DNA of 64,000 nt from assembly GCF_021405525.1 (NCBI RefSeq), contig NZ_JAGQAG010000001.1, positions 1,116,001 to 1,180,000 of the forward strand. The letters run 5' to 3'. The notes below the pieces were generated by a model. The model was given only the letters and a program-made list of their open reading frames with translations. It searched no databases and had not been told where the DNA came from. Below are positions 57,184 to 58,763 of this stretch, piece by piece (position 1 is the first letter of the stretch; every line of letters starts with the position of its first letter). Source of the DNA: Ruegeria pomeroyi (lineage in GTDB: Bacteria > Pseudomonadota > Alphaproteobacteria > Rhodobacterales > Rhodobacteraceae). The position numbers were made by a program, and so were the translations under genes.

Positions 57184-58581
57184 TCAACTTTCGACAATCT
57201 CTGCCAGAAAGGCCGAGAATTCCGAAAGGAACAAATCCAGTGCGGGTGAGCCATCAATGAGGGCATGGTTGTTTCCCGGCAGGGTAACAAAGCGCGCGCC
57301 GGGGATCAGCGCCGCCATCCTGCGCCCCTCGGCCACAGGCACGCGCCGGTCGCCTTCGGAGTGCAGAACCAGTGTTGGAGCCTGGATTCGGGATGCATAG
57401 TCTGAAACCTCGACCGAGGCGTTCATCGTATTGATCCGGGCCGCCACATCCGGCGAGCATGAGACCCGCTGCAACTCGTCAAAACTGGATTTCTGCGCCT
57501 CGGTGGAATCCGGCATCATGCTTTCGGTGAACAGGTGCCGATAGGCCGGGTTCGGTGATCCCCAGCCTTCGCGGATGAGAACGTTTGTCGCCTCGGACAG
57601 GGCCGACTGTTCGGGTGAATTGCGCATGAGCGCGCCTCGGAGATAGCCCGCGACCAGCACCAGGCCAGAAACTTTTTCCGGATTTTCAGCGGCATAGCGC
57701 ACAGAGAATGCGCAGCCCTGCGAGATACCGAAGAGCACGAACCGGTTCAGGCCAGCCGCCTCGACGATGCTGCCGATGTCCGAGATCATCGCGTCCTCGG
57801 AAATCTCGGCCGGGTCCCGATCGGAAAGCCCGTTGCCGCGTTGGTCGAAGCGGACAAGATCGCATCTGTGCGACATCTGCTCCAGGAACGGCCCCCAGAC
57901 GGGGCTGCGCCATTCATAGTCGAGATGGTTGAGCCAGTTGGGTGCCTTCAGGACACTCGGCCCTTTGCCGATCCGCGCCCATGCCAGTTGTGTGCCGTCC
58001 CCCGCAATGCAGAACGACACGTGCTGGGCCTGTGAACGGGCGGTATCGGGGCTGTTGTCCCGGCTACGGTCCGGCACCCATTGCCAGACACGGATCGGGC
58101 GCGTGATGTTCTTGACCTTTTGCAGGCCGAGATCGGTGAAAGGCTCCGTTACCCGATCCTGCGTAATCTGGTGGACCACGTCCGAGATACATATCCCGCC
58201 AGGTTCCGAAATCGCCTCCAGCCGGGCCGCGACATTCACCCCGTCACCGAAGATGTCCCCGTCTTCCAGAAGGATATCGCCGATATTGATTCCGATGCGG
58301 TACTGGATGCGCTCCTTGCGCGGGGTGTCGGCCTCACGCTGCTGCATGGCCTGCTGGATTTCCAGCGCACAGCGAACGGCGGCCTGCGCGGTGTCAAAGC
58401 GCGTCAGCATGCCATCGCCGGTCGTCTTGACGATCTGGCCACCCGCCTGCGCGATGGCGGGGTCGATCAACTCGCGGCGATAGAGTTTCTGACGCCCCAG
58501 AACATCGCTTTCGTTGCGCTCCATCAGACGCGTGTAGCCTGCCATGTCGGCGGCCAAAATGGCGCAAAGCCGGCGTTCCAT
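57184..58581 (-). CDS. Class III adenylate cyclase fused to an alpha/beta hydrolase
   Basis: A 465-residue two-domain protein. Residues 1-about 165 are a cyclase catalytic domain: metal Asp12 (ADMAGYT) and Asp56 (TGDGM) 44 apart, adenine-specifying Lys52 and Asp109, and transition-state Asn116/Arg120 (VNVAARLE). All six key residues are present, so an active homodimeric cAMP synthase is predicted. Residues about 190-465 are an alpha/beta hydrolase with nucleophile Ser287 (GISQG), Asp411 and His439. No membrane segment. The hydrolase may sense or process a ligand that tunes the cyclase. It follows valS on the same strand. Confidence 0.92.
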   Translation of the reverse strand: MERRLCAILAADMAGYTRLMERNESDVLGRQKLYRRELIDPAIAQAGGQIVKTTGDGMLTRFDTAQAAVRCALEIQQAMQQREADTPRKERIQYRIGINIGDILLEDGDIFGDGVNVAARLEAISEPGGICISDVVHQITQDRVTEPFTDLGLQKVKNITRPIRVWQWVPDRSRDNSPDTARSQAQHVSFCIAGDGTQLAWARIGKGPSVLKAPNWLNHLDYEWRSPVWGPFLEQMSHRCDLVRFDQRGNGLSDRDPAEISEDAMISDIGSIVEAAGLNRFVLFGISQGCAFSVRYAAENPEKVSGLVLVAGYLRGALMRNSPEQSALSEATNVLIREGWGSPNPAYRHLFTESMMPDSTEAQKSSFDELQRVSCSPDVAARINTMNASVEVSDYASRIQAPTLVLHSEGDRRVPVAEGRRMAALIPGARFVTLPGNNHALIDGSPALDLFLSEFSAFLAEIVES

Positions 58582-58702: not shown

Positions 58703-58763
58703 CCCCCATCGGATGCGATGCCGATGGGGGGCGGTGTCATGAGTATTTTCAGCAAAGTGAAGG
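58703..58763. repeat. Hairpin plus GAGTATTT-family motif, copy 3 (downstream of valS)
   Basis: Hairpin CCCCCATCGG / CCGATGGGGG (58703-58730, 8-base loop) and the recurrent motif at 58741-58763 (GAGTATTTTCAGCAAAG then TGAAGG). On the minus strand the motif lies 3 bases after the valS stop, then the hairpin. The rest of the gap to the cyclase start at 58581 shows nothing. Confidence 0.65.

Follow-up and report, generated by a model that had tools for sequence, protein, structure and literature searches.

A class III cyclase–alpha/beta hydrolase fusion in Ruegeria pomeroyi and the signalling outputs of related hydrolase domains

Which role does an alpha/beta hydrolase play when it shares one polypeptide chain with a class III cyclase? 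This question is raised by a gene of Ruegeria pomeroyi, an open reading frame with an ATG start that occupies 57184–58581 on the minus strand of the window (the whole stretch of 64,000 nucleotides that was analysed), ends with the stop codon at 57184–57186 and encodes 465 amino acids. The initial annotation, which did not name the strand, had described here a cyclase fused to a hydrolase with six catalytic residues in the former and a full triad in the latter. The fusion is borne out, with both Pfam domains above their cut-offs (Guanylate_cyc, residues 6–144, E 3.9e-11, 43.3 bits vs a cut-off of 21.9; Abhydrolase_1, residues 224–442, E 1.9e-19, 70.7 bits vs 25.8), and all of the catalytic residues were found where it had placed them (Table 1); judged by residues alone, both active sites are complete. 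We show in the following that both domains are under purifying selection and that the hydrolase subfamily is shared with other signalling outputs.

Table 1: Features of the cyclase–hydrolase fusion gene with their positions in the window.
Feature	Position	Strand	Basis
Whole gene, N-terminal class III cyclase and C-terminal alpha/beta hydrolase	57184..58581	-	ORF and Pfam
Class III cyclase domain, residues 1–168 (about)	58078..58581	-	Pfam match 6–144; PDB 3mr7 over residues 2–187
Variable linker, residues 169–185	58027..58077	-	Identity to relatives
Alpha/beta hydrolase domain, residues 186–460 (about); module common to other output domains	57202..58026	-	Pfam, alignment, model
Subfamily signature NWLNHLDYEW, residues 215–224	57910..57939	-	Alignment of relatives
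Helical lid, residues 323–389, predicted	57415..57615	-	Secondary structure of model
Asp12 of cyclase	58546..58548	-	
Lys52 of cyclase	58426..58428	-	
Asp56 of cyclase	58414..58416	-	
Asp109 of cyclase	58255..58257	-	
Asn116 of cyclase	58234..58236	-	
Arg120 of cyclase	58222..58224	-	
Ser287, nucleophile of hydrolase triad	57721..57723	-	
Asp411, acid of hydrolase triad	57349..57351	-	
His439, base of hydrolase triad	57265..57267	-	

Cyclase half, conservation and gene surroundings

The motif of class III adenylate cyclases consists of two metal-binding Asp, a Lys/Asp pair, which as a rule in these enzymes means ATP as substrate, an Asn and an Arg. We take Asp12 and Asp56 to be the metal-binding residues, Lys52 and Asp109 presumably specify the substrate, and Asn116 and Arg120 would be the transition-state residues. 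All six are invariant across the 20 cyclases aligned, namely 15 hydrolase fusions and five other cyclases of the Ruegeria genome; L003, L004, L005, L007 and L008, which have no hydrolase half, were used only as cyclase rows. PDB 3mr7 is nearly identical to residues 2–187 (360.7 bits), so that an experimental structure of the cyclase half is practically available. The predicted structure of this half is poor, with a pLDDT below 50 for residues 91–184, and therefore allows no inference on how the two domains touch. With regard to the function of 3MR7 our literature search found no paper, and the papers naming it, in their accessible parts, concern protein-folding algorithms. From the 26 own-genome matches of the window protein 18 fall into the cyclase half, indicating that the Ruegeria genome is rich in class III cyclases. 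One locus of this genome (L077, 2065–7126 on the minus strand; G000:C1, about 1227.6–1232.6 kb) carries five consecutive genes on the same strand, each encoding a SnoaL-like (NTF2-type) domain fused to a class III cyclase.

End-to-end relatives are found in Ruegeria sp. (L009), Ruegeria marina (L010) and an alphaproteobacterial MAG (L011) with 94, 89 and 76% identity, respectively. Against these three the dN/dS values are 0.089, 0.058 and 0.124 for the cyclase and 0.052, 0.060 and 0.116 for the hydrolase, and the identity of the linker amounts to 94, 47 and 41%. Relatives over the full length together with dN/dS of 0.05–0.12 in both domains show that the gene is no chance ORF but a real, selected fusion. 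When the best eight candidates per genome were scored, the window-type fusion was present in 8 and a second fusion type in 3 of 198 genomes of the host's family, the window genome being included in both counts. Fusions were also detected in 16 plasmid records, all below 60% identity (Rhizobium 13, Microvirga, Mesorhizobium and Paraburkholderia one each).

The window gene lies downstream of valS and is followed by a convergent enoyl-CoA hydratase gene; both also flank the fusion in L009–L011. No effector or ligand gene was found beside the window gene, and operon context was rejected as a clue to the ligand because these two neighbours indicate none. A promoter and terminator scan was likewise set aside as evidence, as it gave 1 and 3 sites vs 0.4 and 1.8 expected by chance. 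Between valS and the fusion gene, at 58703–58730, visual inspection showed an inverted repeat, CCCCCATCGG/CCGATGGGGG; it is absent from the list of the terminator scan and may mark where the valS transcript ends.

On the Rhizobium plasmids the gene that follows the fusion, at a distance of about 0.2 kb and in the same orientation, codes in 10 of the 13 records for an ion channel with a cyclic-nucleotide-binding domain. In two others the channel gene lies 6.6 and 14.7 kb from the fusion, and in R. etli 8C-3 (L098) it was not found within the 6.8 kb read. It was also not found at the ten loci L086–L095, two of which (L089, L090) are cut by contig ends, or at L009–L011, and the Microvirga and Mesorhizobium fusions have other genes next door. 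The rhizobial neighbour fits cAMP as the output, which is a weak hint coming from one species group, with the channel being present in 44 Rhizobium records vs 13 with the fusion.

Output domains of the hydrolase relatives

To take the hydrolase half by itself, we compiled 59 relatives of residues 183–465, of which three are from the own genome, nine from named loci, 25 from a survey of 198 genomes of the host's family (best eight candidates per genome) and 22 from a survey of 398 genomes of the phylum (best six per genome). Left out as repeats were L043, L045, L067, L074 and L075; the cyclase matches L068–L073, every plasmid match and the second of the two winged-helix/hydrolase genes at L076 also stand outside the 59, and for L063 and L066, which have one stop inside the match, only the open frame was used. 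A signalling output is carried by 58 of the 59, a count for close relatives, as these are favoured by the survey cut-offs (1e-60 and 1e-50) and free-standing members below the cut-off fall outside the collection.

The outputs comprise winged-helix (18), cyclase (15), SARP-like (12) and LuxR-type helix-turn-helix (12) domains and one Ser/Thr kinase. Pfam assigned Trans_reg_C 18 times, Guanylate_cyc 15 times, GerE 12 times and Pkinase and BTAD once each, and scans protein by protein confirmed Trans_reg_C in every one of the winged-helix proteins. For the N-terminal part of 11 relatives the Pfam match was weak or missing, but a profile built from these parts matches the BTAD protein L032 with E 4e-21 (0 of 200 shuffles of L032 matched), and all 12 were therefore called SARP-like. 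The sole relative without an assigned output, L030, is located at a contig edge and has a stretch just upstream in another frame that looks SARP-like by eye.

In the own genome the four hydrolase matches with E values of 2e-30 or below all belong to fusions, and six weaker ones (E 2e-8 or weaker) lie in reading frames 275 to 384 codons long. The same genome also harbours two tandem winged-helix/alpha-beta-hydrolase genes only 6 bases apart (L076, 576–2984 on the minus strand; G000:C1, about 1351.1–1353.5 kb), both with Trans_reg_C and a Ser/Asp/His triad.

When the output labels are placed on the phylogeny of the 59 hydrolase domains, they cluster and require 8 changes (7 without L030), the minimum possible being 5. 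Cyclase fusions appear in two places, with a single grouping being rejected only marginally (AU p 0.044), and L013, a kinase fusion encoded in an acidobacterial MAG, groups as sister to the winged-helix fusion L016, the branch being starred. A literature search, whose coverage mostly excludes subscription journals, found no paper describing the hydrolase as a shared sensor module.

Triad, fold and possible roles of the hydrolase

Within the subfamily signature W216 is present in 55 and H219 in 57 of the 59 relatives. Residue 287 is Ser in 56 and Cys in three, residue 411 Asp in 55 and Glu in four, and residue 439 His in 57 and Asn in two, leaving the full triad in 52/59; the window protein and the three relatives nearest to it are among these. 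The remaining ones show Ser/Glu/His (L022, L044), Cys/Asp/His (L059, L060, L065) or Ser/Glu/Asn (L002, L025). The triad is also kept in the rhizobial fusions L079–L081, L096 and L097 and in the Paraburkholderia fusion L099. The predicted structure is good across most of residues 187–464, and residues 189–464 of the model align to solved hydrolases at Z 31. Aryl esterases are closest (Z 31; 1va4 Z 31.1), followed by the 3-oxoadipate enol-lactonase 2xua (Z 30.3), the strigolactone receptor D14 (Z 28.2), the AHL-degrading esterase Est816 (5egn, Z 27.9) and RsbQ (Z 27.8), and the helices at residues 323–389 of the model correspond to the helical lid of RsbQ/D14/KAI2 hydrolases. As plain esterases rank first at Z 31 vs about 28 for the receptors, the modelled fold alone cannot separate enzyme from receptor. 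An identity as AHL lactonase was rejected, the shared fold being the sole likeness.

The complete triad of the window protein and of most of its relatives, together with the nearness to esterases and an enol-lactonase, would be expected from a bifunctional enzyme without crosstalk, in which the hydrolase has a metabolic job and the fusion merely fixes stoichiometry or location. In line with this, the accessible part of PMC10865251 lists the mycobacterial LipJ among esterases with functional characterisation. Nevertheless, a metabolic job hardly explains why the same subfamily is found on DNA-binding domains and a kinase, and a fusion lacking the triad is kept as well, and we consider this explanation unlikely.

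This latter fusion, L002, is the second cyclase–hydrolase fusion of the window genome and has lost the catalytic His. Compared to L025 its dN/dS is 0.14 in the hydrolase and 0.07 in the cyclase part (one pair only), which argues that the His-less hydrolase part is still kept by selection. At L094 (5027–7795), in a genome of the same genus, L025 adjoins a convergent hydrolase–cyclase protein with the domain order of LipJ, which reaches 362 bits to NF058673 (cut-off 800). The selection acting on L002 and L025 is what one would expect if the hydrolase were a binding-only or scaffold module that binds a ligand without turnover or merely sets the dimer, the triad being a remnant of an enzyme ancestor. 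However, retention of the triad in the large majority of relatives, including the window protein and those nearest to it, makes such a module quite improbable. A coupling in the reverse direction, with nucleotide binding or cyclase-made cAMP regulating the hydrolase, has the completeness of both sites as its sole point in favour and is very improbable, as the hydrolase is the constant part across the relatives and the cyclase only one of several partners.

We favour, with moderate confidence, a reading in which the hydrolase serves as an input module: it would bind a small molecule, probably cleave it and in this way control the cyclase, similar to RsbQ or D14/KAI2. According to this model the window protein would be a presumably cytosolic single-chain signal transducer, whose hydrolase domain may bind a small molecule of ester or lactone type under the lid and would probably cleave it slowly. 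A change in the lid or the dimer would be passed via the short linker to the cyclase, which would work as a homodimer and make cAMP for a putative effector, with Lys52 and Asp109 pointing to ATP as its substrate.

The input module is suggested by the signalling outputs of 58/59 close relatives, by at least 7 to 8 changes of output on the hydrolase tree, by the fusion of all four best own-genome matches and by the selection on the His-less L002/L025 hydrolase. Further arguments are the six cyclase residues kept in 15/15 fusions, the channel gene next to the fusion in 10/13 Rhizobium plasmid records and a fold near D14 and RsbQ, although this fold is also near that of plain esterases. Against it stand the rank of ordinary esterases ahead of both receptors, the full triad in 52/59 as expected for enzymes, the lack of an adjoining effector or ligand gene at the window gene, the only marginal case for a repeated origin of cyclase fusions, a channel linkage that comes from one species group, with the channel in 44 Rhizobium records vs 13 with the fusion, and a collection of relatives made above a similarity cut-off. 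The initial annotation had contrasted an enzyme partner with a sensor domain. This contrast is probably false, as close hydrolase relatives occur on several output domains and the His-less sister fusion is kept. Its interpretation is supported in part, and its idea that cAMP synthesis might be coupled to a putative ester or lactone is plausible.

Taking the input module further, the fusion could be a branch of an unrecognised bacterial family of alpha/beta-hydrolase receptors, in which an enzyme fold has become an exchangeable sensor for cyclases, for regulators of the winged-helix, SARP-like or LuxR type and for a kinase, with catalysis given up in some branches. Such a family would be the bacterial parallel to the strigolactone/karrikin receptors, with sensor and output joined in one chain. 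We put this forward tentatively, as a proposal somewhat short of probable. Should the hydrolase indeed act as a sensor, cAMP signalling in Ruegeria-like and root-nodule bacteria would gain a new cue in the small molecule that it recognises, and the DNA-binding fusions would be ready reporters for finding the ligand. Catalysis-based perception as in plant hormone receptors would then extend to bacterial single-chain regulators.

Comparison with known systems

Fusions of a cyclase and a hydrolase as a kind have been on record before with 3mr7 and LipJ. The title of PDB 3mr7 reads ‘Adenylate/guanylate cyclase/hydrolase, alpha/beta fold family’ and its cyclase half is the near-identical one described above, but the solved chain of 189 residues ends ahead of the hydrolase into which the window protein continues. 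LipJ (Rv1900c) from mycobacteria possesses the same two domains, and among the NCBIfam profiles its family NF058673 (bifunctional lipase/adenylate cyclase) matches the window protein best (E 5e-38, 131 bits). However, the domain order is opposite: the hydrolase is found at profile positions 5–267, which match window residues 183–440, and the cyclase at about 291–447, whereas in the window protein the cyclase comes first. With this reversed order and 131 bits vs the curated cut-off of 800, an identity as LipJ was rejected. LipJ is described to form asymmetric homodimers in the accessible part of PMC3938503.

Bacillus RsbQ and the plant proteins D14/KAI2 show a similar fold with 16–18% identity in the aligned part and use the hydrolase as a signal receiver. 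In KAI2 ligand binding depends critically on the triad Ser (PMC6022639, accessible part), and for RsbQ a title cited in PMC10950880 states that sigma-B activation requires the catalytic function. In contrast to the window protein, which has its output in the same chain, these are separate proteins acting on partners. The aryl esterases, the 3-oxoadipate enol-lactonase and Est816 are one-domain solved chains of 260 to 271 residues with an aligned identity of 19–24%. A rhizobial cyclase without its own sensor domain, CyaB, responds to cytokinins (PMC13001267), and the word ‘hydrolase’ does not occur in the accessible text of that paper. To this record our analysis adds the occurrence of close hydrolase relatives on gene switches and on a kinase, and with it the suggestion that the hydrolase works as a chemical sensor.
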